Of a stretch of DNA of 29,334 nucleotides, positions 4,230-28,829 are shown piece by piece. The notes beneath the pieces are model-generated. The model had not been told where the DNA came from and searched no databases. It saw only the letters and a program-made list of their open reading frames with translations. The position numbers and the translations under genes are program-made. Every line of letters starts with the position of its first letter. The first letter of the stretch is position 1. The DNA is from a virus, in the IMG/VR virus record IMGVR_UViG_3300047560_000243, positions 1 to 29,334 of that record; one strand, given 5' to 3'.

Positions 4230-5937
4230 AGTGGGCGATGGCAGTAGCCTTCTTACCTTTAGCTTGCAGTGTCTTAACTGCAGCGTTTGCTTGATGTCCG
4301 TTGTCAAACTTCTTCCATGGCTTACCGTCGATGTGAACAGTATGTGGTCGATCTAACATAGACTTAGCTTTGAATGCTGGCTTACGTTCGTTATGGTATT
4401 CATCGTCTTCACGTGGCTTCTTAGCGAAACCAGTACGGTTGTCGTCGTAGTTGTTACCTTCTGAAACTAATTCAGAGAAAGACTTCAGACGAGATTCTTG
4501 AGTCAATGCAGTTGTATGTGAAGCAGATCCACCGAAGTTATCTGGAGCAGTTGGTGTAGCGTTCTTGCTACCCTTTAACAATTCTTCACCACGCTTCTTA
4601 GAAGCAGCTGTACGTTCTTGTTCACGTTGGAATGCTTTCTGTAACTTCATAGCTGCAGTCATACGTGCTTCGTTAAGAGAAGCCTCGTGGTGTTCTTCTG
4701 CTTTAGCAGCATGCGTGTCAGCTACGTTGTGACGACCTTTGCTGTCGTGCCATTGAGCCATAGCATCGTGGTGGTTAGCCATGTGAGCATTATAAGCAGC
4801 GTTGTCTCCACGAGCCTTAGCTTTTAGAGCTTGTTCTTTGTGTTGCTCTGCTGCTTCATAAGATTCACCCAAGTGATGTTTGATCTTCATACGGCGAAGA
4901 TGGGCAGAACCCTTATCGCCATTGTGGGCATTGATAGCATTACCAACTTCAGTTGGGTCAAATACTTGTAGCTTTTGGTTCTTAGCATCAAGGTCAGACT
5001 CGCTGTCTTGATCTTCATCAGATACTGAGTGTGGAACGTACTGTTCCATCTTGGCATCCTTTAGGTCACCGTTGTCAGTATTGTAGTTATAGAAAGTCAT
5101 GAAACCTTTTTGTAAACCTTTAGCCTTTGGCTCTGGATTACCATTAAGGTCAGAGTTAACTTTGTTCGAACTAGCAGGTTCAACCTTATCAGTTCCGTTT
5201 GGTTGAATGACAGCTTCGTCAATCGCTTTTACGTCGTGGATCCATTTAGACACAAGTTCTCCCGATTCTTCTTTTAATAGTAGGTGATTGGAACCACGTT
5301 TAACGATGGTATAATGTGCACCATTTGATTCTACAATATCTCCCTCGTTGAAGATTTCGCCACGGAAATACTTCTCACGGAGAGTGTCCTTAACGAGGTT
5401 CAACTGTTCTTTGATTGGCTCTAAGCCCATACCAGCACGAACATCATTCATTAGACGACGACCATCAAGTTCACGAATAGAACTTGGCAGTTTCTTCTTA
5501 AATTCTTCATAGAGACCCTTCGTTGCAAACGACTTCATCTTAGAGTCATTTACGTCTGGGTCTTTTTCGTTGACTGTGATAATGTCAACAGATTCTCTTA
5601 ACGACTTCTTGATTGACGATACTTGGTCAGCACCGACAACTACGATTACGTTCTTATACTTTTGTTTTAGTTGCTCTAGAGAAACAGAGAACGATTCTTC
5701 AATGGAAGTGAAGTTAGTCTTTGGGAAAACTATCTTCAAGTATTGAGACTTCTTGTCTTCTTGTAGAGTCTTAGATGTGGATGTGAAGATGACGTGTGCT
5801 GAGTTCTTTTGTTCAGCCAGTCTTTTGACAGTCTTTACCAACAGTTCGTGCCCAACTGTAGGAGGATCAAAATCTCCTAATGCGCAAACGATCGTGTTTG
5901 TTGGTAATTCTTTGACGAGTTGTCTATAATCTTTCAT
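3394..5937 (-). CDS. HxGH nucleotidylyltransferase domain fused to long modular, basic-tailed head protein (847 aa)
   Basis: The start at 5937 (MKDYRQLVKE) is preferred to the in-frame ATG at 5946 because it reproduces the N-terminal peptide of neighbouring proteins. Neither start has a strong ribosome site. Residues about 14-175 form a cytidylyltransferase-like domain with the nucleotide-binding motif GDFDPPTVGH (21-30). After it come a small beta unit, a His/Ala-rich helical region (about 360-425), an internal copy of the N-terminal peptide (LKSFSELVSE, about 485-494), the acidic linker FKEEVEDLEES (about 570-580), a Cys cluster CPVCMKQECQC (648-658, possible zinc site), a very acidic segment and a strongly basic helical C-terminus (about 735-835). 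The ISxTxxR motif of active nucleotidylyltransferases is only partly recognisable (SSIRELDGRRL). I infer a capsid-internal, DNA-binding protein that may be proteolytically processed. Confidence 0.7.
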   Translation of the reverse strand: MKDYRQLVKELPTNTIVCALGDFDPPTVGHELLVKTVKRLAEQKNSAHVIFTSTSKTLQEDKKSQYLKIVFPKTNFTSIEESFSVSLEQLKQKYKNVIVVVGADQVSSIKKSLRESVDIITVNEKDPDVNDSKMKSFATKGLYEEFKKKLPSSIRELDGRRLMNDVRAGMGLEPIKEQLNLVKDTLREKYFRGEIFNEGDIVESNGAHYTIVKRGSNHLLLKEESGELVSKWIHDVKAIDEAVIQPNGTDKVEPASSNKVNSDLNGNPEPKAKGLQKGFMTFYNYNTDNGDLKDAKMEQYVPHSVSDEDQDSESDLDAKNQKLQVFDPTEVGNAINAHNGDKGSAHLRRMKIKHHLGESYEAAEQHKEQALKAKARGDNAAYNAHMANHHDAMAQWHDSKGRHNVADTHAAKAEEHHEASLNEARMTAAMKLQKAFQREQERTAASKKRGEELLKGSKNATPTAPDNFGGSASHTTALTQESRLKSFSELVSEGNNYDDNRTGFAKKPREDDEYHNERKPAFKAKSMLDRPHTVHIDGKPWKKFDNGHQANAAVKTLQAKGKKATAIAHFKEEVEDLEESMVDSWKNVQSMDKGSVTGGKEEVKKRLAYLTAVHAHHKKFGNDTHKVKKEIESINRSRLVEEEEPKLCPVCMKQECQCDDSHGFIKGMEPTFDPFFKEEEEISDAEIDKMIESVTDEDIEDLYEESEFAIIDEETGEELPVAEGEDKLDLMEVLSRQERMRAKVRLRRTEAKRERSTKVALKRYSDTKTINKRARRLAIKLMKQRMLRGRDLSKISVGEKERLERTLEKRKEVINRIATKLVSRVRKTEKARMSHGTFTKGSSPSVF

Positions 5938-5966
5938 ATGATCCATCTATAAAGTAGTAATACTAT

Positions 5967-7203: not shown

Positions 7204-8105
7204 ATAATTCTCCATCCTGAGCGGTAAATCAGTTGGATACCGCCATTATCCGTTTGTAAAATAAAACCTTCTGGGTCATTGTCAACATTACCAACAACAT
7301 TGATTGGGTTTTTAGAAGCATTGCCAGATTCGTCTTTGAAGACCAACATACGACCAGAACTAGGAGAATTGGGTAGGGTTATCGTAACTGCATCATCATA
7401 GTTCACTCCAATGTAGTAATCATTATCCTGCACAGTATATGTGGCAGTAGTTACTTCAGTTGCATTATGGACTACCTCGTAAGGGTTTATTTCATCAAAT
7501 ACGAATTTCTTTAAAGAGCCATCGTATTTTAACCAACGCCCATCAGCGATAGTATCACGTTTAACATCATCCAACCATCGTAAGTTTACTTCACCAGAAC
7601 CTGGACCAGCATTGTTGATCTTACCAACCCATTGTTCCAAGAACCTAAACTTTTCTGTTAAGTGTTTTAGTTCTCTACCATAATCAACGTCAACTTTTTC
7701 TGGCTCTTGAAATTGCGGAGACTTTAAGTACTTGTCGATTGATGGGATATCAACTACGTCAGGGATTACCTGAGTCGCAGGAATCTCGCCAATTGGAGTT
7801 GATAACGGAGGAGTCTCAATTAGAACTTCTTCCACGATCGGTTTAACTTCAGCAGCTGGTTTCTTTGCTGCAGCCAATTCTGACAACAGAGAAGAGAAGT
7901 CTGCTTTGATTGATTCTTGAACTTGTGCTTCGATTCTTTTTGTTTGCTGAACTTTAGGATCTTCTGATTTTAATGATGACAGTTGTGAGAATAGACCACC
8001 AAGATCTCCCTTGATGTTCTCTTTAATCTCTTTAGCCTTCACAGCAACTGGGTCAGTCTTCTTCCCCTCTGCCATCAATTTTAGAAAATCATTTAATTCA
8101 CTCAT
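7200..8105 (-). CDS. Virion structural protein with helical N-terminus and beta C-terminal domain (301 aa)
   Basis: The first 100 residues are helical and contain two related units (KEIKENIKGDLGGLFSQLSSL and AQVQESIKADFSSLLSELAA). A proline/valine-rich linker and a short helix (LKHLTEKFRFLEQWVGKI) follow. Next comes GPGSGEVNLRWLDDVKRDTI, a string I recall from marine T4-like phage structural proteins. The C-terminal 100 residues (TYTVQDNDYYIGVNYDDAVTITLP ... GGIQLIYRSGWRII) resemble a small trimer-forming beta domain seen at the ends of phage fibres. The N-terminus MSELNDFLKLMAE only weakly resembles the capsid-targeting-like peptide of the neighbours. The start overlaps the upstream stop as TAATG. 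It is likely a head-attached or fibre protein, with the exact location unknown. Confidence 0.7.
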   Translation of the reverse strand: MSELNDFLKLMAEGKKTDPVAVKAKEIKENIKGDLGGLFSQLSSLKSEDPKVQQTKRIEAQVQESIKADFSSLLSELAAAKKPAAEVKPIVEEVLIETPPLSTPIGEIPATQVIPDVVDIPSIDKYLKSPQFQEPEKVDVDYGRELKHLTEKFRFLEQWVGKINNAGPGSGEVNLRWLDDVKRDTIADGRWLKYDGSLKKFVFDEINPYEVVHNATEVTTATYTVQDNDYYIGVNYDDAVTITLPNSPSSGRMLVFKDESGNASKNPINVVGNVDNDPEGFILQTDNGGIQLIYRSGWRII

Positions 8106-9889
8106 TACTTCATCGCTTTACGAAGGTCATTGTACAGTTCGTCTTTATGTTCTGGTTTCATCTGGCTGGATAGATGAGAGTGGAACTCTTTCTTCTTACC
8201 AGACGATGCTAGTTCTCTTAACTTAGTGCCAGAGATTCCAGCTACACCCTTAGCGTTTTCGTCACGCTCACCAGATGAGTGGAAGTCGATGCTCTTAAAG
8301 TTGTAGTGACCATGCGCACCCTTGACACCGTTGTACTTCTTAAGAAGTTCGTACATTGGCTTACGGTCTGAACCACCAACGAAGTGTAGATGTGTAACAC
8401 CCTTAGCGTGTAGGTCAGAAGCGTGTTGAAGAACAGTTGGTTTGTCTTTAGAAGCAACCTCAATGTTAGTTCCAGGGAATGCATTACGTGCATGCTTCAA
8501 CTTAGTTTCTGGATCAAGAGGATTCTTACCGTCTTTGGTGTTGTGAGAGTGAGACAAGATTAGAGTATGTCCACCACCAACTTTCTTGGCAGTGTCTTTA
8601 ATAGTCTTCACAACTTCTTCGTGACCAGCAGTTGGAGGATTCATACGTCCATACGCCATCACGTGGTGTACGTCTTTATGCTCTGCAGCATTGGATGGAG
8701 TTCTAGCCTTCAGTAAGTTCTGACGAGCAAACTCTGCACGGTTGACCAACTTGGTTGGTTCAGTAACACCTTTGTGAGTGTGGTTGTATACGAAACCTTC
8801 TGGCTTAGACGCTTCTCCACCGATAGCGTGTTCGTAAGAACCTTCATTAGATTCCAGAGACTTAACCATCTCGTTCTTAGCATTCGCTAAGTGTTGGTGC
8901 ATTTTGAATAGGTTATCATAGTGAGCCTTGTTCTTCTCAATATGATTGACGTGAGTCTTCAGTTCGTCTAACTTAGCGTTCTGAGATTTCTCAGTCTTAA
9001 GTTTACCAACGATTTTCTCGTACTTACCAGCAATGTGTTGCTTTAAACCTTCTGCTGTTGGAGTGCTTCCATCACGGACAGTTTGGTTAATGTAAGTACC
9101 CAGATGCCCAGCTTCACCTTGATGCATCTCAGTGGCTTTGTACATCTTGCTACCATGCTTCTCGTGGATAGCCTTAGCCTTAGATAACTCGTCCAATACT
9201 CTCTTCTGAGATTGTTCAGAATAGTGAGCACCCTTGGCATCGTAGTCAGCTGTGTGATGAAATACGTCTGGGTGTTGTTTGAAGTCAGAAGCATCAACGT
9301 CATGAGTAGCATGCATTGAAGCTAGGTTATGACCATGATACTTGGTGTGAATAACGACACCGATCTTAGACTTCTTGATAGCGTCAGCTTTGTCACCTTT
9401 AGCAGTATAGGTGATAGTGTTCGGAGTGAACGAAACCTTACCGTCTTTATGCTTCTTAAGGTCGTCATGGGTATACATCAAGTCACCTTGATAAACACCT
9501 TCCTTTGGAGCAATCTTAGGGAAATGGTGAAGTGCACTCTTCAGTTTGTCGGCAAGACCTGGAGCATGTCCATGGTTCTTATCAACGTCTTCTGGAGTGT
9601 AGTTAATCTTTGGATTCTTATTGAAGGCAGACTTAGAAGCAACGAAGAACTTACCAGTCTCTGGATGGTGACCAAAGACAACTGATGGCGAACCATCATA
9701 CTTCATTGTCAGCTTATGAGATTGCATTCCCTGCTTTGTGTGGAAATGTGCGCCATGAAGTGCATCATAAGCATGATGGAATCCCTCTGCTCCGTGGAAC
9801 AGAGGACGATCTTCAGCGTGGTGAATGTGCTTTAACTTAGCACCTTCAGCGTTAGCATCTTCAGTTAAGAAATCTAAGAAGTTTAACAT
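8105..9889 (-). CDS. Ligase-like adenylyltransferase fused to HxGH nucleotidylyltransferase, with capsid-targeting-like N-terminus (594 aa)
   Basis: Two catalytic modules are visible. Residues about 20-390 carry the nucleotidyl-transfer motifs of DNA/RNA ligases: motif I KYDGSP (63-68, Lys63 as candidate adenylated residue), a motif III-like GVYQGDLMY (131-139), motif IV EGFVYN (364-369) and motif V TKLVN (379-383). A His/Lys-rich helical insertion (about 225-345) separates them. Residues about 405-594 are a cytidylyl/NMN-adenylyltransferase-like domain with GRMNPPTAGH (414-423) and ISGTKLRE (552-559), both key motifs intact. The N-terminus MLNFLDFLTED matches the peptide on the neighbouring gene. 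It begins 1 nt after the upstream stop. The natural substrate is unknown: RNA or DNA end repair, or nicotinamide-nucleotide chemistry, are possible. I infer that it is packaged and perhaps injected. Confidence 0.7.
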   Translation of the reverse strand: MLNFLDFLTEDANAEGAKLKHIHHAEDRPLFHGAEGFHHAYDALHGAHFHTKQGMQSHKLTMKYDGSPSVVFGHHPETGKFFVASKSAFNKNPKINYTPEDVDKNHGHAPGLADKLKSALHHFPKIAPKEGVYQGDLMYTHDDLKKHKDGKVSFTPNTITYTAKGDKADAIKKSKIGVVIHTKYHGHNLASMHATHDVDASDFKQHPDVFHHTADYDAKGAHYSEQSQKRVLDELSKAKAIHEKHGSKMYKATEMHQGEAGHLGTYINQTVRDGSTPTAEGLKQHIAGKYEKIVGKLKTEKSQNAKLDELKTHVNHIEKNKAHYDNLFKMHQHLANAKNEMVKSLESNEGSYEHAIGGEASKPEGFVYNHTHKGVTEPTKLVNRAEFARQNLLKARTPSNAAEHKDVHHVMAYGRMNPPTAGHEEVVKTIKDTAKKVGGGHTLILSHSHNTKDGKNPLDPETKLKHARNAFPGTNIEVASKDKPTVLQHASDLHAKGVTHLHFVGGSDRKPMYELLKKYNGVKGAHGHYNFKSIDFHSSGERDENAKGVAGISGTKLRELASSGKKKEFHSHLSSQMKPEHKDELYNDLRKAMK

Positions 9890-11183: not shown

Positions 11184-11900
11184 TTATTTAGGACGGCGAG
11201 ATGCTCGGATCGTTCTGTCGTACTTTCGATCCCACTTGACTATCTGAGACATTAGCTTAGGGATAGCATGGTTATTACGGTAGTCGTAGTCGAACGTCTT
11301 CAGAATGTACTTTAGAGTGTTTGAATCACGCTTTGTTTTAGCACGATTGATTAGGGTTTGGGTTGGAATGTTTGGTCGAAAGACCTTAAAGTCTAGCAGG
11401 ACACAGTGAGCGTATGCCTGAATCTCGTCGAACTCGGAGAGGTACTCTCGTTCGTAGTTCTTCTTAGCTTGCTTGACTTTCTTGTATGGAACAATGTAGT
11501 TGGACCACTGGTCGCATCTTCTATCGAACTGCATGAAGTGAATTAGCTCATGCATTTGGGTTTGTATCAAGCGATACTTGAACTTATCCCAAGAGTCGTC
11601 GGTGAAGTTAAATCTGTCAAAGTTTTGGGAGTAGATGTGTAGTGTACACTGGCGATTGTTTGGGTCGTATTCCCCTCCTGCAGCGACATAGGTGTCGTAC
11701 AGTTTCGCCTTAGATTTTTGTGGTCTGAACTCTACTCTGGTTCGCCACTTTTTGAAGTAGTTGGAGAGACCCTTACTATCATTGCGATAGTTATCAAGAT
11801 CTCTCCACACTTTGCTTGGAACAAACTTAGCCCTAAATGGACGCTCATAGAAGTTGAGTAAGTCCATCCAGTCGAAGTCGGCAGTCTCTAGGAATTTCAT
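11184..11900 (-). CDS. HExxH metallopeptidase-like protein (238 aa)
   Basis: Residues 117-121 read HELIH, a perfect HExxH zinc-binding and catalytic motif. They are followed about 35 residues later by SEFDEIQAYAH (155-165), where Glu156 or Glu159 could be the third zinc ligand, as in gluzincin-type enzymes. The surrounding protein is rich in basic and aromatic residues and has no signal peptide, so it should act in the cytoplasm or the virion. The start has a clear AGGAG site 6 nt upstream and a 21-nt gap from the kinase gene. It is the last gene of the replication/modification block. The substrate is unknown; host-protein cleavage or virion maturation are both possible. Confidence 0.7.
   Translation of the reverse strand: MKFLETADFDWMDLLNFYERPFRAKFVPSKVWRDLDNYRNDSKGLSNYFKKWRTRVEFRPQKSKAKLYDTYVAAGGEYDPNNRQCTLHIYSQNFDRFNFTDDSWDKFKYRLIQTQMHELIHFMQFDRRCDQWSNYIVPYKKVKQAKKNYEREYLSEFDEIQAYAHCVLLDFKVFRPNIPTQTLINRAKTKRDSNTLKYILKTFDYDYRNNHAIPKLMSQIVKWDRKYDRTIRASRRPK
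11185..11192 (-). promoter_or_regulatory. Late-promoter-like octamer (CCTAAATA)
   Basis: CCTAAATA followed by ATAGTA matches the string before the 847-residue gene (5961-5974). It overlaps the metallopeptidase stop codon and would give a leader of about 65 nt for the first gene of the structural block at 11111. The repeated longer context is the main support. Confidence 0.4.
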
Positions 11901-11921: not shown

Positions 11922-12464
11922 TTACTTGGCTAAGTGTTTCTCCAAGAATCCAAGAACCTTTCCTTGCTCCTCTAAGTTAGTGTTTACAAACTCAGTAATA
12001 TATGGCATCAAGTCAAAGTTAGACAGTAGGTTACTATATTTAGTTGCTCTGCCTTTTAGGAAAGTCTCGGACTGGTCTGAACCACGATCCACATAACGCT
12101 GTTTTAGAGTGGCGTCTGGGACTTTGAGATAGACCACCTGAAGGTCTGTCTCAGGCTGGTTCATGGCGAACTCCAAGAAAGACTGGTTGAAGATTCGGTC
12201 ACCTTCAAAGAGGATGTTGGACTTAGTCTCGGTTACAAACTCTTGAGCGATAGGCTGAACAGCCATGGACAGTCGGTCGGTGCCAGCAAAAGTCTCACCG
12301 TCTTCGTACTTACCTAGGATGTATAGGTCTAGTTCTTTACAGTAGAGAGCAGGGAGCATCTTCTTAGGTTCAACCTTCTCCCAAGTATGGGCTTCCATGA
12401 ACTTACGGAACAATGTAGTCTTACCAGTTCCAGGCTGACCACCAACAGCAATTAGTTTACGCAT
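11922..12464 (-). CDS. P-loop kinase, candidate DNA-base kinase (180 aa)
   Basis: The start at 12464 is chosen because GAGG lies 6 nt upstream; an ATG at 12476 is also in frame. A Walker A motif GGQPGTGKTT (residues 8-17) follows a short beta strand (MRKLIAV). Later come SNILFEGDRIF, a likely acid-ending strand, and a lid-like segment (KQRYVDRGSDQSETFLKGRATKY) with arginines that could contact phosphates. The size and layout match nucleoside/nucleotide-kinase-like P-loop proteins, not AAA+ ATPases. It lies two genes downstream of the amino acid:DNA transferase-like gene. In thymidine-hypermodifying phages a P-loop kinase phosphorylates 5-hydroxymethyl-uracil in DNA before amine transfer, and this is a candidate for that role. 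A deoxynucleotide monophosphate kinase is the alternative. Confidence 0.7.
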   Translation of the reverse strand: MRKLIAVGGQPGTGKTTLFRKFMEAHTWEKVEPKKMLPALYCKELDLYILGKYEDGETFAGTDRLSMAVQPIAQEFVTETKSNILFEGDRIFNQSFLEFAMNQPETDLQVVYLKVPDATLKQRYVDRGSDQSETFLKGRATKYSNLLSNFDLMPYITEFVNTNLEEQGKVLGFLEKHLAK

Positions 12465-12879
12465 TACGTGCCTCATTAATTAGGTTTTTCAATTCGTCTT
12501 CTGTGAACACCCATACTCTTCCAATGAAATGGTGCACATCAGCATCAACGTCTTTCTTCTTAGTGAACGTTGCTTTCTTAATTATATCTCTCGCAAGATT
12601 CTTAGACAAGTTTTCTTTGATCTCGTCTGCAAAGGTTGGCACAGTTTCCTTCAACTTCATGAACTCGTGTTCTTGCAGTTTGTGGTCAACTGTGAACTTG
12701 TTAAACGAACGTGTGTCCAGAAAACCTTCCATATCGAAGTGTTTACCAGCGCTGACATTACTGACAGTTGTTATTGGCATTGAGATAGCAGTACCCAATG
12801 CACCAAATGTATTTCCATCAATCATACCAGTACCAAGATAGTCTTGTATGTTGATCGTTTTCATTAAATCGTCACCCAT
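12457..12879 (-). CDS. Unknown protein inside the modification cluster (140 aa)
   Basis: No family is recognised. The protein has a Gly/Thr-rich N-terminal part (IQDYLGTGMIDGNTFGALGTAISMP), a central HFDMEGFLDTRSFNKFTVDHKLQEHEF segment, and a helical, charged C-terminal half (ADEIKENLSKNLARDIIKKATFTKKK ... VWVFTEDELKNLINEARN). The start at 12879 overlaps the upstream stop as TAATG and has GGAG about 9 nt upstream; an ATG six codons in (12864) is the alternative. Its stop region overlaps the kinase start. Being wedged between the transferase-like gene and the kinase, with overlaps on both sides, suggests a role in the same process, perhaps as a partner subunit. Confidence 0.65.
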   Translation of the reverse strand: MGDDLMKTINIQDYLGTGMIDGNTFGALGTAISMPITTVSNVSAGKHFDMEGFLDTRSFNKFTVDHKLQEHEFMKLKETVPTFADEIKENLSKNLARDIIKKATFTKKKDVDADVHHFIGRVWVFTEDELKNLINEARNA

Positions 12880-13895
12880 TAAAAATTCTCCAGTCCAACC
12901 AATACTGGTTGCTCATCATCAAATAACCACTCCAAGTTCTCCAGCTTACCAGAGTTTAAGAATGAACTAAATCTTTCCTTATTGATTCCAACGTCACGGT
13001 CAAGTCTCAAGTCGATAGTCTCGTTTCGTGCTTGCCACATAACATCCCAATCAATACCATACCAACCATCAGATTGACACTGTTTGATTTCTTCAGCTTG
13101 TCGATCCAGATAGTATCCAAGATAGCGACCACGGCTAACTCTGAAGATCTTCTTGAATGAACACAAGCAGGTTTCCATAGTGAAGAAGTCAATCTGACTC
13201 GCTAACTCAGGAAAGCGTTGAACCATTTCCACCCTGATGCTTTCGCCCATTGCTTCAAGGTCTGTGTACTCGCTTCCAGTAAGTTTTCGATCGTAATCGT
13301 CATCCCTGCCAAGGGCAAGAAGTAATCCATTACGATGAGAACGGGAGCCATCATAATCACTAAGCATAAGAGAACTAGGCACAACGTCAAGTCCAGCAGT
13401 GTGCTTAAGATGCTGCATATAGAACCAAGTAGAATAACGACCGAACTTATGAAGCTGTCCTTTAAGAACGTCCCACAGAGCATCAAAGTTTTCTTTAGCA
13501 TCACCGACGTAGTACGATTCGAGTGTTTCACGTTGAGTCTTCTTTCCAATAAAATTCTGATACGATTCAAACATTGCTGGAAGATGACCCTTGTTCCATT
13601 TCGTATCAGTCTGGTAACGTAGTCGTTTGTAGTTGGTAGTATTCCATTGAGTCATACGATCGACAGTTGCCAATTCGTAGTCAGGGAATTCGTTCATCAG
13701 AACCCATGCAGTTGGGAGATAGTAAGTGTTACCATACAACCAGCAAAGCCACAGTCGTTGTTCGTCATTATGTTCGTATCGTTTGTTAAGATAGTTCGTA
13801 GCCCATACAGCTGGGTCACAGTCATCATACTTCAACGACCAAGCATACCAACGAATGAACGCTTCACGTCTGTTTTCTTTTTTTCTGTAATCCAT
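12879..13895 (-). CDS. Amino acid:DNA transferase / 5-hmdU-kinase-helical-domain-like protein (338 aa)
   Basis: The sequence is aromatic and helical, with strongly patterned blocks: WLYGNTYYLPTAW (52-64), RLRYQTDTKWNKGHLP (91-106), FGRYSTWFYMQ (151-161) and SDYDGSRSHRNG (179-190). I recall these from the group first predicted as alpha-glutamyl/putrescinyl-thymine pyrophosphorylases (Iyer, Aravind and colleagues). Members were later shown to act as amino acid:DNA transferases or to form the helical part of 5-hydroxymethyl-dU DNA kinases in hypermodifying phages. There is no P-loop, so the kinase activity would come from the neighbouring 180-aa protein. The C-terminus VGLENF resembles the SLEDFF ends of neighbouring proteins. 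Both ends overlap adjacent genes as TAATG. The family call is moderately secure; the substrate is not known. Confidence 0.65.
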   Translation of the reverse strand: MDYRKKENRREAFIRWYAWSLKYDDCDPAVWATNYLNKRYEHNDEQRLWLCWLYGNTYYLPTAWVLMNEFPDYELATVDRMTQWNTTNYKRLRYQTDTKWNKGHLPAMFESYQNFIGKKTQRETLESYYVGDAKENFDALWDVLKGQLHKFGRYSTWFYMQHLKHTAGLDVVPSSLMLSDYDGSRSHRNGLLLALGRDDDYDRKLTGSEYTDLEAMGESIRVEMVQRFPELASQIDFFTMETCLCSFKKIFRVSRGRYLGYYLDRQAEEIKQCQSDGWYGIDWDVMWQARNETIDLRLDRDVGINKERFSSFLNSGKLENLEWLFDDEQPVLVGLENF

Positions 13896-14536
13896 TATTT
13901 CAAAAAATCTTCAAGTGATGGTTGATCCATCAATGCGTCACGAAGCCATGCCTTACCGACATATTCGATGGCTTCCTTAGTTTTTGCTTTCTTCTTATCA
14001 CCCCACTTGTAGGAATCTAATCCTTCTTTACGGAATTGCTCTCTAGCTTTGTAGGGAGGTAAAGATTGTAGTGGGCTGACGATGGCTGTGTCACGCCATG
14101 CGATTTGTTCTGCACGTGTAGCGAATAGTGGCTGGTCTGAGCGGAGTGAACCAGTGGGGTCAACTGCCCAAAAGACCAAGCCATTCCGTAAGTGCCAAGT
14201 GACTGACGTTGGTGTGCATGATATTTTGAGTCGTTGGGTTTTTCTTTCTTCGACTGCGTATTTGATCCACGCATCCCAGCATTTTGATGCATAACCTTTT
14301 CCTTCTTTACCTTCGATTGTGACAATTTCGTAGAGGTTGGCATATCCGTCTCGGTTAAATGTAGCGAAGATTAAACAAACAACTTCACCATTGTCTTCAT
14401 AAGCCATCGGTGGACACTTCTCGTAGTTCTTAAAGCGATACCACAATGAGTGTGCAGCCGATAAGAACTTGGTGTTCTTACCAGCTGGCGAGTTTTTAAT
14501 AATCTCTTCTACTCGTGTAGAGTTAACAAAGTTCAT
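13895..14536 (-). CDS. GNAT-like N-acyltransferase with clamp-binding-like C-terminus (213 aa)
   Basis: The start at 14536 (MNFVNSTRVEE) is preferred; a GTG at 14557 is an in-frame alternative. A GNAT core is visible: beta strand EVVCLIFATF, strand NLYEIVTIE, then GKEGKGYAS (76-84), which fits the acetyl-CoA pyrophosphate loop (Q/R-x-x-G-x-G/A), helix KCWDAWIKYAVEE, strand RLKISC and a C-terminal segment ending the fold. The last residues, QPSLEDFLK, match the C-termini of the DNA polymerase (SLEDFFG) and the TET-like enzyme (SLEGFF). The gene overlaps the amidotransferase gene by 14 nt and ends on TAATG with the transferase-like gene. The context suggests acylation of an amine placed on DNA, but protein or small-molecule substrates are not excluded. 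Confidence 0.65.
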   Translation of the reverse strand: MNFVNSTRVEEIIKNSPAGKNTKFLSAAHSLWYRFKNYEKCPPMAYEDNGEVVCLIFATFNRDGYANLYEIVTIEGKEGKGYASKCWDAWIKYAVEERKTQRLKISCTPTSVTWHLRNGLVFWAVDPTGSLRSDQPLFATRAEQIAWRDTAIVSPLQSLPPYKAREQFRKEGLDSYKWGDKKKAKTKEAIEYVGKAWLRDALMDQPSLEDFLK

Positions 14537-15215
14537 ATTCTTGTAAGTCCTTGGCACCTTCGATGACTACCTTTTCCATAGTCATTGCAAGGTTCTCATC
14601 AAACGTAGTGTAGTGGTTCATTAAAAGATTCACAGGTGATCCTCCAGCATTTGCACGCTCAGGAATATTCCATGTAGAAGTAATTATACACCCACTAGGC
14701 ACAGATGTCAAATATAATGGACGCTTACCGTTGCGATAGACTCGCAACTTCTTATCAACATGCAACTCGCAAACTGCAAGAGAGGAGTCTTTCCAATGTT
14801 CCAATGGTGAGTGGTCTTCCAACGAACGGAGCAATAACTCAGTATCGTTCTTACCTTCACACTTGTAACCGTAGATAGTTTCCCAGTCTTCGTATAGTTC
14901 TTGGGTGATAACACCGTTGTGAACTACAGAAACTTTATCATTAGCAATTGGTTGATTGTGCTCAAGATCGCTAGTGGAATAACGACAGTGCCCAACCATA
15001 TACAGATTTCCATCTTCATTAACATAGTCAGCAAACTTAAAAGGAAACTGATCAGCTGGGACTGGTCGTTTATCCGTTACAATCTCTCCACCTTTAATGT
15101 AGGAGATACCAGTAGCATGCATCCCACGAATCTTAGACTCGTGGAATACACGTAGCAGCATTTCAAAGTCCTCTGGACGAGGACTCTTTAGGATTGCTCC
15201 AATGACAGCACACAT
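14523..15215 (-). CDS. Class II (Ntn-hydrolase) glutamine amidotransferase (230 aa)
   Basis: The protein begins MCAVIGAIL, placing the nucleophile at Cys2, to be exposed when Met1 is removed. Other class II motifs are present: RGMHATGISY (residues 30-39), VGHCRYSTSD with the glutamine-binding Arg, VVHNGVIT for the oxyanion hole, KNDTELLLRSL and YRNGKRPLYLTS. Such domains release ammonia from glutamine and pass it to a synthase. Here the domain stands alone with no synthase fused, so the ammonia acceptor must be another protein, probably encoded next door. It starts with a TAATG overlap on the TET-like gene and overlaps the GNAT gene. In this context it likely supplies nitrogen for a base modification. 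The enzyme class is very secure; the pathway is an inference. Confidence 0.9.
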   Translation of the reverse strand: MCAVIGAILKSPRPEDFEMLLRVFHESKIRGMHATGISYIKGGEIVTDKRPVPADQFPFKFADYVNEDGNLYMVGHCRYSTSDLEHNQPIANDKVSVVHNGVITQELYEDWETIYGYKCEGKNDTELLLRSLEDHSPLEHWKDSSLAVCELHVDKKLRVYRNGKRPLYLTSVPSGCIITSTWNIPERANAGGSPVNLLMNHYTTFDENLAMTMEKVVIEGAKDLQEYELC

Positions 15216-16564
15216 TAAAAGAAACCTTCTAAGCTGTTAGACTTTTCAGACTCTGGGTGATACTTCTTCAACTCATCTGGTCCAAGACGTTCTTGACAGA
15301 AGTCATACCACTCTTGGCTTTCCCACATACCAGCTGAAACACCATTCCAAAGAGGGCGTTGCTCTGGATGTTCTTTGTTGTTCTTACGAGATTCAACAAA
15401 GTCATAACGGCAGTCTTCGTACTCTTTAGAACCAAGCTCAAGCATCTTCTCACGGAAATAGCAAACCAGAGAAATACGTTCAGCTTCTTCGTCCAAGAAC
15501 TTGATCTCAGTATTACCGTGAAGAACTTCGTGGTTGTTGATCAACAGCAAGTCGCCTGGTCTTACGTTCACAGCAACACGATACTCTGGAGCAACCAAGT
15601 AGCAACCTTCATAGTTACCGTTGTTGGACAACACCAATAGGTTTGACAAACCAGTATCCAAATCACCAGCGTCAAAGTGAGCAGCTGTACGGAAAGACTT
15701 GTTCACAGTAACAGTAGTGAACGGAGTCCCTGGAACTAAGAAGCGTTCATCAATTTTCTTTGCTGCTTCCATCTGGTTGTTGTAACGCCATGGCAACAGT
15801 TCTTTGAAACCCTTGGCAAGAGTTTGTAGGAATGGATAAGCCATCGCAAACTTCTCTGGGTTACGTTGAGTATATGATGTGGCACGACCATAAGGGATAC
15901 GGGGGTAACGATCGAACCAACCAGCGATACCAGAGAACACACCGTTAGCGTATGTAGTGGCACAAACGTATTTCTTGATAACACGTTCAGCTTCAACCTT
16001 CATCTCGTCAGCTGGCAGTTTCTTAGTAGTCTCAACCCATGAAGCGAAGTCGAAACCATCTTTCTTAACTGCAGAGATACCCCACACGTTGTTACGGTTA
16101 GAAGGACTTGGCTTCTTACCTTTGTGGTTGTTCTTGATTTCTTCGATTGGATCTTCACCGAACAGGTTGGCAGTTGGGTTGCAGAAGTAATCCAGAACGT
16201 CATACTCATACTCAGTTACCCACTCACGATTGCCGAGTTTCTCAGCACGTGGTCCAGCTGCGAGTCCACGGTTCTGTGTCTCAGTTGCAGCTTCACGAAG
16301 ACCAGCATATGCTGCATCTTGTTGTTCTTTTGTAAAGTAGTTCTTACGGAACTTGAACGCAATGCGCAGTTCGTCTGTACCCTTGGAACAGTTGGCACAA
16401 TCACGATTCAAATCACATGACGCTTGAGCAGCGACATCGCAAGTTGCTGGCATATAGACGTCAGCGTCTTCCTCGACCAGAATGTCGTAGTGCGATTCAT
16501 CTAAGAACTGACCCAACAGATGAGAACAGTCGTGTTTTCTATCAGCTACAATTACCTTTACCAT
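15215..16564 (-). CDS. TET/JBP-like 2-oxoglutarate/Fe(II) dioxygenase, candidate DNA pyrimidine hydroxylase (449 aa)
   Basis: The C-terminal half holds a double-stranded beta-helix dioxygenase core. The iron motif is FRTAAHFDAGD (His296, Asp298), the distal histidine lies in HEVLHGNTEI (His349) and Arg363 in ERISLVCYF is a candidate 2-oxoglutarate ligand. The segment GLSNLLVLSNNGNYEGCYLVAPEYRVAVNVRPGDLLLINNHEVLHG is of the type seen in phage TET/JBP enzymes, which oxidise 5-methylpyrimidines in DNA. The N-terminal half has a Cys cluster (Cys42, 50, 56, 59), perhaps a metal site, and WGISAVKKDGFDFASW. The last six residues are SLEGFF, like the polymerase C-terminus. The gene follows gp41 after 9 nt with a GGAGAG site. 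No DNA methyltransferase or thymidylate-synthase-like gene is in the window, so the substrate base is unknown. Confidence 0.75.
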   Translation of the reverse strand: MVKVIVADRKHDCSHLLGQFLDESHYDILVEEDADVYMPATCDVAAQASCDLNRDCANCSKGTDELRIAFKFRKNYFTKEQQDAAYAGLREAATETQNRGLAAGPRAEKLGNREWVTEYEYDVLDYFCNPTANLFGEDPIEEIKNNHKGKKPSPSNRNNVWGISAVKKDGFDFASWVETTKKLPADEMKVEAERVIKKYVCATTYANGVFSGIAGWFDRYPRIPYGRATSYTQRNPEKFAMAYPFLQTLAKGFKELLPWRYNNQMEAAKKIDERFLVPGTPFTTVTVNKSFRTAAHFDAGDLDTGLSNLLVLSNNGNYEGCYLVAPEYRVAVNVRPGDLLLINNHEVLHGNTEIKFLDEEAERISLVCYFREKMLELGSKEYEDCRYDFVESRKNNKEHPEQRPLWNGVSAGMWESQEWYDFCQERLGPDELKKYHPESEKSNSLEGFF

Positions 16565-16573
16565 TTTTCTCTC

Positions 16574-17971
16574 CTAAAACTTAAAACCTTCAAAGCCTTC
16601 TGCTTTTTGTCTACGACCAAAATTACTCTTATCGAACATTGGTGTGTCATCATACTTGTCTTGTCCCGAGTCTGCCAAACCAGCTTGTGCCGATTCTTCA
16701 ACATCGTACAGTTTCATCTTAGCTCTATCAATCCCAACGACGAATCGTTTGTAAAAACCTGGATCGTTATAGCGATTCTTTAACTGCTTGACAATAATCT
16801 GTCCCAACGCTTCTAACTCTTCATTGCTGACCAAAGCAAACATAAAGTCAGCTGTCGCTGGCAAACCGAATGATTCAGAAGTATCTTCAAGACCTGGATC
16901 TGAGTTTGTATATCCAGAGCGAGTAGTTTGTGTGGCTGAAACGATTGGTACGTTATACTCAACAGCCAAACCTCTTAGTTCTTCAGCAATTGCCTTAATA
17001 TATGTATAAGAGTTTACAGAGCCACCTTGCTTCATTCGCTGACTTGCGCAGATGTTCAAGTAGTCAATGAAAATAATATCTGGTCTGAACTCTCGTTTCA
17101 ACTTCAACTCTTCAAGTAATGCACGGAAATGTCCAGCATGAGCACCAGCTGTAGGATATTCCTTGATGATCAGTTTACCTTGAGTCTTCTTGGTAATCTT
17201 ATCAATGCGATTCTCGTAAATGTCTCTGTCGATAACTTTCAATTCGTCCATGGTCAGGTTCAACAAGTTCGCATCAATACGTTCAGCGATTCGTTCTTCT
17301 GCCATTTCCATAGTTATGTATAAGACATTTTTACCAGCTGTCAAAGCGCCAGCACCAACGTGACACATGAACAACGACTTACCAACACCAGTACCAGCCA
17401 ATGCGATGTTCAGAGTTTTCTTGGACAGACCACCCTTGGTAATCTTGTTGAACATATCCAAGTCGAAAGGAATCTTCTCTTCAACACGATGGTAGAAGTC
17501 ATAACGAGATGCATGGTCGTCAATGTAATCGTGACCAATATGATTGTCAAACGATACAGCCAAAGCGTCCGAAAGGATAGAAGGAATTGCGTCTGTTGTG
17601 TGTTGTTTGTCACGACCTTCTTGGATTCGGATAGAAGTCAGGATGGCGTTATACACTGCTCGGTCTTTACAGAACTTCTCTGTATTCTCGAGTAACCAGT
17701 CTTCATTGACTGGTTCAGTGCTGAGTCCATTGACGTACTCATTAACCTCAGCCATCTCTTTGTCGCTGAGATCCTTACGGTTGCTCACTTCAATCTGCAG
17801 AACTTCTTTGCTTGCAGGTTTGTTATACTTCGTGAAGAAGGAAAGAAGTTCATCGGCGAGGACTACTTCTTTCCTGTCTGAAAAGTAATCCTTCTTGATA
17901 AATGGGATTACCTTTCGGCAGTATTGCTCATCATGTATCAGATTCGCTAGAATCTTTTGTTCTATTCTCAT
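16574..17971 (-). CDS. 41: Replicative DNA helicase, T4 gp41-like (DnaB family, 465 aa)
   Basis: A RecA-fold hexameric helicase that unwinds DNA 5' to 3' at the fork and recruits primase. The N-terminal helical domain spans about 1-150. The ATPase domain has Walker A GTGVGKS (193-199), TMEMAEERIAERID (about 220-233) and Walker B IIFIDYLN (299-306), followed by VSATQTTRSG, the DnaB-type loop, and a basic arginine-finger region (VKQLKNRYNDP). The ATG at 17971 is used; it overlaps the upstream gene by about 40 nt, with CGGAG just before it. The C-terminus AEGFEGFKF loosely resembles the other (L/F)-E-x-F ends in this window. The length fits T4 gp41 (475 aa). Confidence 0.95.
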   Translation of the reverse strand: MRIEQKILANLIHDEQYCRKVIPFIKKDYFSDRKEVVLADELLSFFTKYNKPASKEVLQIEVSNRKDLSDKEMAEVNEYVNGLSTEPVNEDWLLENTEKFCKDRAVYNAILTSIRIQEGRDKQHTTDAIPSILSDALAVSFDNHIGHDYIDDHASRYDFYHRVEEKIPFDLDMFNKITKGGLSKKTLNIALAGTGVGKSLFMCHVGAGALTAGKNVLYITMEMAEERIAERIDANLLNLTMDELKVIDRDIYENRIDKITKKTQGKLIIKEYPTAGAHAGHFRALLEELKLKREFRPDIIFIDYLNICASQRMKQGGSVNSYTYIKAIAEELRGLAVEYNVPIVSATQTTRSGYTNSDPGLEDTSESFGLPATADFMFALVSNEELEALGQIIVKQLKNRYNDPGFYKRFVVGIDRAKMKLYDVEESAQAGLADSGQDKYDDTPMFDKSNFGRRQKAEGFEGFKF

Positions 17972-18257
17972 CAACTCCGCCTGTGTATGTCAAATTATTT
18001 TCTTCAATGCCTTGATGAATGAGTTCTTCTAGAATCTTTCCTAAGACAGATTCAAAGAAACCCAAGTCATCGGGTTCTTTGTCTGCCCAGTCTAATACTT
18101 CATACTCAAACTTCAATGTCGCTGTAAAGTTAGCTTCGTCCTCTTCAATGCTAACCTTACCGTATGTATACATTATACCTGTAAATGGTTCAGCTGTCAA
18201 CTTAATAGCTTGTAAGCCATTGTGACGGTTCTCCATTACGACATATGGTTTACTCAT
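17931..18257 (-). CDS. Conserved T4-like phage hypothetical protein between uvsX and 41 (108 aa)
   Basis: The protein has a small beta-rich N-terminal part (AIKLTAEPFTGIMYTYGKVSIEEDE ... ATLKFEYEVL) and an acidic helical C-terminal part (FESVLGKILEELIHQGIEENN). I recall a small protein of this style at the same place, between recombinase and helicase, in marine T4-like phages, but no function is established. It overlaps uvsX by 8 nt and gp41 by about 40 nt, so translation of the three is probably coupled. The acidic character and position might fit an accessory factor of recombination or replication; this is only a suggestion. Confidence 0.75.
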   Translation of the reverse strand: MSKPYVVMENRHNGLQAIKLTAEPFTGIMYTYGKVSIEEDEANFTATLKFEYEVLDWADKEPDDLGFFESVLGKILEELIHQGIEENNLTYTGGVDENRTKDSSESDT

Positions 18258-19625: not shown

Positions 19626-20174
19626 TTATGGATTCTTCTTGGAATGTGGTACATCGAACACGAATGTAATTCGTGGACAATCCCCAACGTTCACAGTTCC
19701 ATGTTGCAACTTGTTGTTGAACCATAGCAAAGTTCCAGGCTCTACTGTTACCATCTCACCACCAACGACATAGTTGTATCTTCCTTGAATTGATAGATGG
19801 TATCTATCTTTATCTTGGTAGTACGTACCTTCGTCGATATGCATACCGACTGTACCACCTACTGGGAGAGATAAAAAACCACAACGTCTAAAGTCGTGGA
19901 AATGTCGTTTCAAAAATCCAATAATCTCAGTGTGTCGTTGGTAGGCTGGAGTTGGCATACACAGTTCACTGTCTCCAACAAAGTCTTCAGCACGAGTAAC
20001 GACACCCATAACCAATTGCAAAACGCCAGCTGGAACATCGAGGTATCCACGATCCAGTAGAGACTGAACACCCTCTACTGTCTTCTGGTTTCCCCAATCT
20101 TCTGGATATTTCTCCAGCTGTTTCAGAATCTTCGATACGTTGATTCCAGTTCTAATAACTCTAATATTATCCAA
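19626..20174 (-). CDS. Aspartyl/asparaginyl beta-hydroxylase-like Fe(II) dioxygenase (182 aa)
   Basis: A cupin-fold oxygenase: GGTVGMHIDEG gives His112-x-Asp114, LQHGTVN gives the distal His158, and PRITFVFDV gives Arg168, a candidate 2-oxoglutarate ligand. The strand order YHLSIQGRYNYVVGGEMVTVEPGTLLWFNNKLQHG is typical of the aspartyl/asparaginyl hydroxylase family. No ATG is available near the true start. A TTG at 20174 has a GGAGG site 6 nt upstream, lying inside the end of the polymerase gene, so I choose TTG; longer readings would overlap the polymerase heavily. The target could be a protein side chain (translation factor, ribosomal protein) or a free amino acid. It is separate from the TET-like enzyme. 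Confidence 0.75.
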   Translation of the reverse strand: MDNIRVIRTGINVSKILKQLEKYPEDWGNQKTVEGVQSLLDRGYLDVPAGVLQLVMGVVTRAEDFVGDSELCMPTPAYQRHTEIIGFLKRHFHDFRRCGFLSLPVGGTVGMHIDEGTYYQDKDRYHLSIQGRYNYVVGGEMVTVEPGTLLWFNNKLQHGTVNVGDCPRITFVFDVPHSKKNP

Positions 20175-22662
20175 AGAAGTCCTCCAATGAACTCTGTTCT
20201 TCTGTTTTCCAACCCAACGGTTCGATGACGATCTGTAGAGCATCAAGGAAAACTTTCTCGAACTGTTTATCATAATCTATGTATGCGTCCAATCCGAGCT
20301 CCTTTGGCAATACCTGACTGAAAGCAATAACGTCTTCCTGAATCGGATTAGGTGTACGTACATACACGAACTTAATCTTATCACCGTCACGGATGGGTTG
20401 ATACTTCTTGTCAATACCGAATCGCTTGCAGTGGTGGTTGAACAACAATGCGCCACGCACATGGATCGGAGTACCCTTCTGATAGATTGGTGAACCAGCA
20501 TACTGTTTCAATCCATTTACACCACGAGGGAATGCAATGTCAGCGATTGGCATCTTGACAAACTCTTTTCTAAACTCCATCACATATGTATGTAGGTCTT
20601 TTTGAGTGCCATGAAGAATAACATTCAGCGAGTCACGTAGCTTATCACGGATGACAGCTGGAGTCGAAGACTTAACCATCTCAAGACCCATGACCTTAAT
20701 CTTAGGCTGAGCAAACTGAACACCCTCAGAGTTATGAACGTTGATAACGTAACGCTTCTTGGCAGTCCAGATGGCTTTGTCGGCTAGAACTTCTCGCTTC
20801 ATGACCATCTTCTGAGAATAGGCATTCATGTAGTCAGCAAGTTCGGTGTAACCTTGATCAATGAATGGTTGGAAAACATCTTCACAGATCTTGTCCATGA
20901 ATTTGATCTTCTGTTCGGTGGTCTTACCTTCGCAAACTTTATCAACCAGCTTCTCAAGAGTCAGGTAGATGGAGTCAGTGTCGATCGCAATAACGAAGTC
21001 CAAGCCTTCAGTCTTGAGAGTCTTGTTCAGGAATGCATTGAGTTTGTTCGCCATCCAACGAATGGACAACTGACCAGAAGTGGTAATACCTTCAGCCATA
21101 CGGATATCGAAGTAACGGAAATACTGGTTACCCATCGCACCGTAAGCAGAGTTCAGAGCAATCTTCATAGCCATCTGCAGGTTGTTCAAACGAGAGATCT
21201 CTTTGAGCAGATGTTTCTTGCTCTTGTCGTTCTGATACTCTTGTTCAACCTTCAACATCTGCTTCTTGAACTTGGAACGATTCTTGTACATCTCTTCCAT
21301 CAACTCAGGCATGAAACCTTTGATGTCTTTACGATAGCACCAGCCGTTCGCAGTCAACGCCAAGTCTCGGCGCTTCATATATTCGGTATCGATCTCTTTG
21401 TGAAGCAACTTATCAACCGTAACTGAAACCTTCTCGGAGGTCAGAGTCTCTGGGCTGATGTTGTACTGCATGATCAAGTGAGGGTACAGACTGTTCAAGT
21501 CGAACGAAGCAACCCACTTGTGCTGCCCAATCAACGGGTCTTTAACATAAGCACCTTCGAACTGGGCATCTTTACCAGAGTACGACTTGGCTGGAATTAC
21601 AATACCCTTCTTACGGAGGTGATTGTAAATGATAGTATCCCACATACGTACTTGAGAGTAAACGTCTTCTGGATTGATCTTGGCGTTGTACGCCATGGTC
21701 AGATGCAGTTCAAGGAGACGCATCTTGTCTTCCAGTTGGTCAACCAACTCTACGTCGTGAATGTTGTATTCAAAGAACAGTTGCCAGTGATGAGTGTAGA
21801 AGTCTTTGAACGTATCACCTGGATTTTCTTTCTTCTTGTCGCCAAGTTCTTGTTCGGCGATATAGTCAAGACGATAAGATTCTTGCTTGGTGTAGGTGTA
21901 CTTCTTGTAGAGTTCGAGATAGTCCAGCTGGCTGATACCCATGATATCGTAGTGGATCTCTTCGTTACCTTTGATGAAGGTCTTACGTTCGTTGATGTAA
22001 CCCCATGGGCTAATCTTGTTGGCGAATGTCTCACCCAACTCACGACCAATACGTTTGATCAAGTAAACGTTATCGAAGAAGTCGGTGTTCCAACCAGTGA
22101 TGATATCTGGGTAGTTACCTTGCCACCAAATCATAAACTCTTTGAGCAGTTGCTGCTCTGAGTTACAGTTGATCAACTTAACATCTGGACGGTTAGTTGT
22201 GGCTGTGCCATACTTGGTTTGAGCGAACGTGATCAGCTTCTTGGAGATTAGATCCTTGACAGTAATCAAGAGAACTTCTTCGTTAGCAATCTTAAGATCT
22301 GGGAAACCATTCTCAGTTTCAGTCTCAATGTCCAGTGTGTAGACTTTGAGATGTTCCATATCCCAGTTGACATCGTCTTCGTAGGTATCGCTGATGTATT
22401 GGTATGCGTAGTTGGTGTTACCGTAAACTGGAAACCCTTGCACATCATCGTAGCGTTTGATGAAGTCTCGTGTTTCACGAATAGTTCCAGGCTTTATCTC
22501 GTCGACGTAGGTATCGTCCAGAGTCTTCCATTTAGATTCTTTCTGAGAAGTGACAAAAAGCGTAGGGTAGAAATCTACCTTACGCTGATATGCTCGACCA
22601 TTCTCATATCCTCGAACGAGGATCTTGTCACCCACTGGGTGAACACTTGTGTAAAATTCCAT
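20167..22662 (-). CDS. 43: DNA polymerase, family B, T4 gp43-like (831 aa)
   Basis: The replicative polymerase with proofreading. The exonuclease domain has DIETE (111-115), GWNTDFFD (190-197) and YNIHDVEL (299-306). The polymerase domain has motif A SFDLNSLYP (386-394), motif B KIALNSAYGAMGNQY (500-514) and motif C IDTDSIYL (560-567). All catalytic acids are present. The start MEFYTS at 22662 overlaps the dexA stop as TAATG; a longer frame upstream is antisense noise within dexA. The length is a little below T4 gp43 (898 aa). The final residues, SSLEDFFG, are a hydrophobic/acidic peptide in the place where T4 polymerase binds the sliding clamp gp45. No intein or split is visible. Confidence 0.97.
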   Translation of the reverse strand: MEFYTSVHPVGDKILVRGYENGRAYQRKVDFYPTLFVTSQKESKWKTLDDTYVDEIKPGTIRETRDFIKRYDDVQGFPVYGNTNYAYQYISDTYEDDVNWDMEHLKVYTLDIETETENGFPDLKIANEEVLLITVKDLISKKLITFAQTKYGTATTNRPDVKLINCNSEQQLLKEFMIWWQGNYPDIITGWNTDFFDNVYLIKRIGRELGETFANKISPWGYINERKTFIKGNEEIHYDIMGISQLDYLELYKKYTYTKQESYRLDYIAEQELGDKKKENPGDTFKDFYTHHWQLFFEYNIHDVELVDQLEDKMRLLELHLTMAYNAKINPEDVYSQVRMWDTIIYNHLRKKGIVIPAKSYSGKDAQFEGAYVKDPLIGQHKWVASFDLNSLYPHLIMQYNISPETLTSEKVSVTVDKLLHKEIDTEYMKRRDLALTANGWCYRKDIKGFMPELMEEMYKNRSKFKKQMLKVEQEYQNDKSKKHLLKEISRLNNLQMAMKIALNSAYGAMGNQYFRYFDIRMAEGITTSGQLSIRWMANKLNAFLNKTLKTEGLDFVIAIDTDSIYLTLEKLVDKVCEGKTTEQKIKFMDKICEDVFQPFIDQGYTELADYMNAYSQKMVMKREVLADKAIWTAKKRYVINVHNSEGVQFAQPKIKVMGLEMVKSSTPAVIRDKLRDSLNVILHGTQKDLHTYVMEFRKEFVKMPIADIAFPRGVNGLKQYAGSPIYQKGTPIHVRGALLFNHHCKRFGIDKKYQPIRDGDKIKFVYVRTPNPIQEDVIAFSQVLPKELGLDAYIDYDKQFEKVFLDALQIVIEPLGWKTEEQSSLEDFFG

Positions 22663-28352: not shown

Positions 28353-28829
28353 TTAGTCGTTTAAGAACTGTTTGCCACCAGCCTTGACTGGGACTTTCTT
28401 AGCTTTCTTTTCCTCTGGTACGAGTTGATCAAGAGCGATCTTCAAGACACCGTTGAAAAGTTCTGCATCCTTAACTTCATACTGGTCACCGATAGCCCAA
28501 GCACGTGTGAAAGCACGGTTTGCGATACCTTTGAACAAGTAGTCAGTACCCTCTGGCTCCACTGATTCAGAGTTGCCCTTAACGATTAGCTTACCACCGT
28601 CGATAGTGATGTCGATTTCGTTTTGTGCGAAACCAGCTACAGCAATCTCGATTGTGTAAGTGTTACCGTTCTTGCGAACATTGAATGGTGGGTAGTTAGG
28701 GATGTCTTTAGTCAAGTCGTCATGCAATTGCTGCATGCGTTTGAATTGGTCGTCAAAACCAACGAATACCTTATCAAAGTCTTTGAAAAGGTCTTGGCTA
28801 AAAAATGCAGGTACGAATGATTTCGTCAT
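28353..28829 (-). CDS. Hsp20 (IbpA-type) small heat-shock protein (158 aa)
   Basis: An alpha-crystallin domain spans about 45-140: YPPFNVRKNGNTYTIEIAVAGFAQNEIDITIDGGKLIVKG, then YLFKGIANRAFTRAWAIGDQYEVKDAELFNGVLKIAL, which fits the A-x-x-x-N-G-V-L signature (here AELFNGVLKI). The N-terminal arm is Phe-rich (SFVPAFFSQDLFKDFDKVF) as in IbpA. Hsp20 proteins hold unfolding proteins; several marine T4-like phages encode one, and roles in virion assembly or host stress have been suggested. The gene has an AGGAG site and lies alone between two terminators, so it has its own regulation; its promoter is not clear from the sequence. Confidence 0.95.
   Translation of the reverse strand: MTKSFVPAFFSQDLFKDFDKVFVGFDDQFKRMQQLHDDLTKDIPNYPPFNVRKNGNTYTIEIAVAGFAQNEIDITIDGGKLIVKGNSESVEPEGTDYLFKGIANRAFTRAWAIGDQYEVKDAELFNGVLKIALDQLVPEEKKAKKVPVKAGGKQFLND

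Follow-up and report, generated by a model that had tools for sequence, protein, structure and literature searches.

Acetyltransferases are said, in work by Lee and colleagues from 2021, to act as late enzymes in thymidine hypermodification, and Burke and colleagues reportedly described, in the same year, a cytosine hypermodification system in which a phage TET dioxygenase works together with a C5-methyltransferase. In the thymidine-hypermodifying phages M6, ViI and phi W-14, the hydroxymethyl group enters DNA as a 5-hydroxymethyldeoxyuridine (5hmdU) nucleotide, and a kinase then phosphorylates the hydroxymethyl base, which next receives an amine or amino acid (PMC6449724). Genes 1-4 of the isolated Coopervirus mycobacteriophages (e.g. 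Magpie, whose genome is complete) encode a ParB protein, a TET protein, an amino acid:DNA transferase (ADDT) and a P-loop kinase; phage Cr30 carries TET and ADDT, and the Rhodococcus phage Tonitrus is annotated with a five-gene thymidine-hypermodification system that includes a TET-like protein (PMC11955845). The subject of this work is a six-gene cassette of a freshwater, T4-like phage, present in the 29,334-bp virus record IMGVR_UViG_3300047560_000243, a genome fragment that was analysed over its whole length and is called the window below. We consider it quite probable that this cassette encodes a clamp-tethered, post-replicative DNA-base hypermodification pathway, and an elaborate base modification of this kind would most likely act as a chemical shield of the phage DNA.

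A preliminary description, made from the sequence alone, had listed six consecutive, overlapping genes and had named a family for five of them. All six open reading frames (ORFs) are indeed present on the minus strand with head-to-tail overlaps, and Pfam returns the expected families, namely Tet_JBP, GATase_6, GNAT, ADDT and Ploopntkinase3. The gp41 gene stands immediately ahead of the cassette, and still farther upstream lie uvsX and gp43; the corresponding uvsX/gp41 neighbourhood of T4 contains b-gt and gene 42. The genes are as follows:

15215 to 16564, minus strand: TET/JBP-type 2-oxoglutarate (2OG)-Fe(II) dioxygenase, 449 aa (PF12851, E = 1.2e-28; phrog_24024, E = 1.5e-166)
14523 to 15215, minus strand: stand-alone class II glutamine amidotransferase (GAT) of the N-terminal nucleophile (Ntn) type, with Cys2, 230 aa (PF13522 GATase_6, E = 2.2e-10)
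13895 to 14557, minus strand: GNAT acyltransferase with an extra C-terminal helical region (PF00583, E = 2.3e-4, just above the cut-off)
12879 to 13895, minus strand: ADDT, a member of the amino acid:DNA transferase family (aGPT-Pplase2-like), 338 aa (PF18724, E = 1.5e-20; phrog_3271, E = 5.7e-55)
12457 to 12879, minus strand: cassette protein without an assigned role, 140 aa, conserved from about residue 55 on
11922 to 12476, minus strand: P-loop kinase (Ploopntkinase3), candidate hydroxymethyl-base kinase (PF18751, E = 2.8e-11)
16574 to 17974, minus strand: gp41-like replicative helicase, upstream of the cassette (phrog_19, E = 6.1e-130)

The TET protein scores 99.9 bits against PF12851 (cut-off 34.9), its profile matches TET2 (E = 4e-6), and it is 48-49% identical to proteins of the isolated phages Cr30 and DLP6; the catalytic residues H296xD298 and H349, as well as the 2OG-binding R363, are invariant among 20 sequences. 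The enzyme is predicted to oxidise the C5-methyl group of a pyrimidine in DNA. ADDT, with 74.3 bits against PF18724 (cut-off 26.2) and 29% identity to Coopervirus gp3 (E = 9e-30), would by family membership transfer an amino acid to a phosphorylated hydroxymethyl base. The kinase, whose likely start is Met5, has a conserved Walker A motif (GGxPGTGKT) and is 26% identical to Coopervirus gp4 (E = 5e-10), which itself matches PF18751 with E = 9.3e-73. The motifs C2, GHCRYST, HNG and NDTE of a class II enzyme are conserved in GAT among 96 sequences; the protein is stand-alone, and an amidoligase is its neighbour only in sister loci. Alignment places the start of GNAT probably at Met8 (around position 14536), and its fold is supported by an AlphaFold model (predicted TM-score, pTM, 0.80) for which Foldseek finds solved GNATs, including spermidine and N-terminal acetyltransferases (best E = 1.3e-5). 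A search of the cassette proteins against NCBIfam added only distant class II GAT matches. No role is claimed for the 140-aa protein, since it has no Pfam or NCBIfam family, its model is poor (pTM 0.39) and its only matches are unnamed viral proteins. The oxidation, phosphorylation and amino acid transfer steps fit known families, and in this respect the view of the locus as a DNA-base hypermodification cassette within a T4-like replication operon has held up; the order of the late steps, amidation and acylation, is one that we infer.

The locus can be followed well beyond the window. Two scans of IMG/VR yielded 314 stretches with ADDT relatives and 175 with TET relatives; the 80 best of each set were retained, which gave 160 loci for examination, mostly on uncultured contigs whose completeness is uncertain. 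The order gp41-TET-GAT-[decorating module]-ADDT-(140 aa)-kinase, followed by the downstream flanking gene, recurs in dozens of these contigs, a conservation that is far beyond chance. Among the loci that reach from TET to the downstream flank, L107 alone lacks GAT, ADDT and kinase; there, a cytidylyltransferase together with a group-1 glycosyltransferase has taken over the position of the entire cassette behind TET. The stand-alone GAT is part of the cassette core, a role for which, as far as we have checked, no earlier description exists. In the window type, GNAT fills the slot between GAT and ADDT; in 41 loci this slot is occupied by a protein of 290-334 aa, all 17 aligned members of which match Amidoligase_2 (best E = 7.5e-9); next to it often comes a further gene, for another GNAT or for a low-molecular-weight phosphatase. 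A glycosyltransferase sometimes precedes the amidoligase, and in one cluster it is the TET-associated family PF20691. The window-type GNAT and the amidoligase are mutually exclusive, with no locus carrying both. On a gp41 tree of 60 loci the module states require 5 changes, as opposed to about 20 with shuffled labels, and well-supported branches force at least 3 changes for the amidoligase; an Amidoligase_2 enzyme has taken the place of GNAT on several occasions. This swapping of modules suggests that a single conserved enzyme makes the hydroxymethyl group and that the decoration added to it is exchangeable.

The genes swapped into the cassette, further GNATs among them, encode decorating enzymes; less common insertions are those for radical SAM, tryptophan halogenase, ParB-domain and 2OG-oxygenase proteins. 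The halogenase (PF04820, E = 7.9e-93) is found in one relative, between ADDT and the 140-aa gene (L022:10139-11614), hinting at halogenated or flavin-dependent base chemistry. The 2OG oxygenases of sister loci are also inserted beside TET, and the window itself encodes a second 2OG-Fe(II)-like oxygenase between thioredoxin and gp43 (19626-20273; PF05118, E = 5e-6; phrog_32420, E = 7e-75), which is retained in many relatives. A replacement gene of L104 and L126, considered as a glycosyltransferase, has no family match and was not counted as proven. The conserved gene directly downstream of the cassette (11184-11900), which marks its far border in relatives, encodes a protein with a HELIH (zincin-like) motif and no Pfam family.

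A further feature links the cassette to the replication machinery. In T4, the C-termini of gp43, gp55 and gp33 bind the gp45 sliding clamp and are interchangeable (PMC2988020), and in the window the polymerase (SSLEDFFG), TET (NSLEGFF), GNAT (PSLEDFLK) and, less closely, ADDT (VGLENF) end alike:

20173 to 20190, minus strand: C-terminal motif SLEDFF of the gp43 DNA polymerase, reference for the clamp-motif matrix
15218 to 15235, minus strand: polymerase-like C-terminal motif SLEGFF of TET (score 18.7, gp43-only matrix)
13901 to 13918, minus strand: polymerase-like C-terminal motif SLEDFL of GNAT (score 15.3, gp43 matrix)
12882 to 12896, minus strand: weaker clamp-like C-terminus GLENF of ADDT (the window copy scores low, -5.5, gp43 matrix)

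We derived a six-position matrix from gp43 C-termini alone and applied it to the nine C-terminal residues of each of 932 ORFs, which come from four near-complete relatives. Among the 213-255 ORFs of each genome, TET ranked first or second in all four, GNAT second or third in all three that have it, and ADDT fourth to sixth. The strict motif (SLExFF/L) is carried by 95% of 109 TET homologues, 100% of 56 GNAT homologues and 89% of gp43 proteins, compared to a background of 0.6% of 865 ORFs, percentages that overstate the number of independent events because homologous genes are not independent samples. In ADDT it is mainly a looser version that occurs, in 99% of 98 homologues (background 5%), and GAT, the kinase and the 140-aa protein have no motif match across homologues. 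A hydrophobic/acidic C-terminal peptide resembling that of gp43, of the type carried by T4 clamp ligands, is present in TET and GNAT, and loosely in ADDT. The linker ahead of the TET motif varies from 7 to 12 aa while the motif stays; the TETs of DLP6 and C48C1 carry it, that of Cr30 does not, and in DLP6 the TET and the polymerase end alike. The C-terminus of T4 gp43 (SLDFLFG) scores positively (7.2), and the SLDFLY of T4 gp55, a few residues from the end, is missed by the matrix. The pattern suggests that the motif-bearing enzymes (TET, GNAT and perhaps ADDT) could ride the replication clamp.

From the gene families and these C-termini we infer the chemical steps, the base and the clamp binding of the following scheme. 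TET would hydroxylate the 5-methyl group of a pyrimidine already present in phage DNA, most likely thymine, to give 5-hydroxymethyluracil, which is likewise the product of JBP. The P-loop kinase would phosphorylate the hydroxymethyl group, and ADDT would exchange the phosphate for an amino acid, after which GAT and its neighbour enzyme (GNAT here, the amidoligase in sister phages) may build amide bonds on the appended group, yielding an acylated or amidated product. TET and GNAT, perhaps with ADDT, would be held on gp45 through their polymerase-like C-terminal peptides, and it is proposed that new DNA is therefore modified just behind the fork. The most specific form of this scheme, in which clamp-tethered TET hydroxylates thymine in finished DNA while GAT and the swappable GNAT or amidoligase turn the ADDT product into undescribed amide-bearing bases that differ from one sister phage to another, is advanced tentatively and stands at somewhat less than even odds.

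Several observations weigh against parts of this pathway, and are best considered together with the alternatives, whose likelihoods bear on separate parts of the explanation and, taken with that of the preferred reading, may add up to something other than one. Regarding the base, the C5-methyltransferase or thymidylate synthase (TS) homologue that the preliminary description had suggested seeking elsewhere in the genome was looked for in relatives. Neither the window nor any of 29 records from relatives, among which are eight contigs of 126-174 kb, gave a match to the C5-cytosine methyltransferase family PF00145; the TS-type family PF00303 was found in none of 11 IMG/VR relatives and, among 14 records, in Cr30 only, so that the close relatives yielded neither. 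All 11 IMG/VR contigs tested encode ThyX, which shows an RHR-type motif in those inspected for it, and Magpie, a complete, cultured carrier of the core, has no PF00145 in its genome. Since the close relatives yielded no enzyme that would make 5-methylcytosine (5mC) or a hydroxymethyl nucleotide, which leaves thymine as the methylated base available, TET most likely acts on thymine in finished DNA, and thymine is probably the modified base. It is conceivable, though rather less likely, that TET oxidises 5mC to 5-hydroxymethylcytosine on which the kinase and ADDT then act; a host methyltransferase could supply the 5mC, as could an unrecognised one, and the phage TETs studied biochemically by Burke and colleagues reportedly act on this base. 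In 116 TETs the residue three after the metal-binding Asp is an Asp, which would suit 5mC, and in 11 it is an Asn paired with a His that aligns with the TET2 His we take to contact the base. The first of these positions contacts cytosine N4 in TET2, NgTet1 and CMD1 (PMC11040006); the pocket comparison drew on TET-type enzymes and does not settle base specificity, so that cytosine stays a candidate. Cytosine is disfavoured by the failure to find PF00145 in relatives, Coopervirus included, or TS-type dCMP enzymes in the close ones, and by the use of hydroxymethyluracil in the known ADDT/kinase pathways (PMC6449724). The eleven TETs (L008, L009, L022, L046, L081) have switched both predicted base-contact residues, from Asp/Arg to Asn/His as in TET2, and all belong to loci with the amidoligase module. 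As for restriction digestion, the portion of the DLP6 paper available to us gives no result for DLP6, and the literature search returned no usable data for Cr30.

Clamp tethering faces its own difficulties. The gp55 of these phages lacks the motif and failed as a positive control; a baseplate hub and a head-tail adaptor carry partly similar tails; and T4 alpha-glucosyltransferase (alpha-GT), which binds and co-purifies with gp45 (PMC13216743), does so without this C-terminal motif, and the binding reportedly does not determine how much it contributes to modification (PMC13216743). The SLExFF/L tails of TET and GNAT might accordingly serve some other contact or have arisen by convergence, which we regard as unlikely in view of their near-identity to the cognate polymerase tail, the variable linker and their frequency among homologues relative to the background. 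The participation of GAT is open to a different objection, as it has no obvious synthase partner in the cassette version of the window. GAT and GNAT or amidoligase could instead make or modify peptides, proteins or envelope, leaving DNA modification to TET, kinase and ADDT: in the isolates BroderSalsa and Vibrio 1.293.O, distant GATs stand beside amidoligase and gamma-glutamylcyclotransferase or ATP-grasp genes, with no TET or ADDT nearby. Iyer and colleagues are said to have described, in 2009, this GAT/amidoligase/ATP-grasp type of phage system. Such a division is improbable here, as GAT lies between TET and ADDT in loci spanning the cassette, GNAT bears the polymerase-like motif, and the L107 swap removes GAT along with ADDT and kinase. 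Animal TETs oxidise 5mC for its removal (PMC11040006), and TET might by analogy strip host methyl marks or remodel host DNA rather than build a base modification, an idea made very improbable indeed by the close association of TET with kinase, ADDT, glycosyltransferase and amidoligase modules.

The preferred reading, that of a clamp-tethered hypermodification pathway, can thus be set against the described systems. The combination of genes had been thought undescribed, which does not apply to oxidase, kinase and transferase, given the precedents of Coopervirus, Cr30 and Tonitrus; GAT together with GNAT or amidoligase is the less familiar part. Coopervirus resembles the window in having TET, ADDT and a Ploopntkinase3-family kinase side by side, but its genes 1-4 include no GAT, GNAT or amidoligase and are not placed in a T4-like replication operon, and the TETs are only 26% identical over a short stretch. 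As in the TET/C5-methyltransferase system, a phage TET would be followed by decorating enzymes, including PF20691 in one relative type, although no C5-methyltransferase was found in the relatives here. The adjacent kinase and ADDT/aGPT-Pplase genes recall M6, ViI and phi W-14; in contrast to the nucleotide route of those phages, and with no TS homologue in close relatives, TET would make the hydroxymethyl group in DNA. An amide bond on a modified base, as proposed here, is made in the CmoX/CmoY carboxymethylcytosine system, some CmoY homologues having a glutamine-hydrolysing domain, but there the base is made by a carboxymethyltransferase and the ligase is fused and asparagine-synthetase-like, whereas here a stand-alone GAT accompanies GNAT or Amidoligase_2 (PMC12783734). 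The systems of BroderSalsa and Vibrio 1.293.O share the class II GAT with amidoligase, unlinked to TET or ADDT, and T4 alpha-GT is, as predicted here, a DNA-modifying enzyme tied to the sliding clamp, albeit one that lacks the polymerase-like peptide (PMC13216743). Three features are provisionally considered new, no description having been found in the literature searched: the joining of the GAT-amidoligase partnership to TET, ADDT and kinase, the exchange of GNAT and amidoligase, and the C-terminal tails that resemble that of the polymerase. If the pathway is as proposed, it would represent a route to hypermodified DNA that starts in finished DNA and not in the nucleotide pool, with a phage equivalent of what JBP does in trypanosomes, and its late chemistry could be read from one swappable locus. 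The polymerase-like C-terminus would offer a rule, open to direct test, for the recruitment of modification enzymes to new DNA, as well as a simple sequence filter for other clamp-borne phage enzymes.

Elsewhere in the window, two long proteins of a probable virion-gene block (3394-5946 and 8105-9889) contain the nucleotidyltransferase-like motifs DFDPPTVGH and RMNPPTAGH, the protein at 8105-9889 having an additional ligase-like motif, KYDGSPSV. By eye, the product of 2935-3381 resembles the Dps/ferritin-like family, and that of 28353-28829 a small heat-shock protein.

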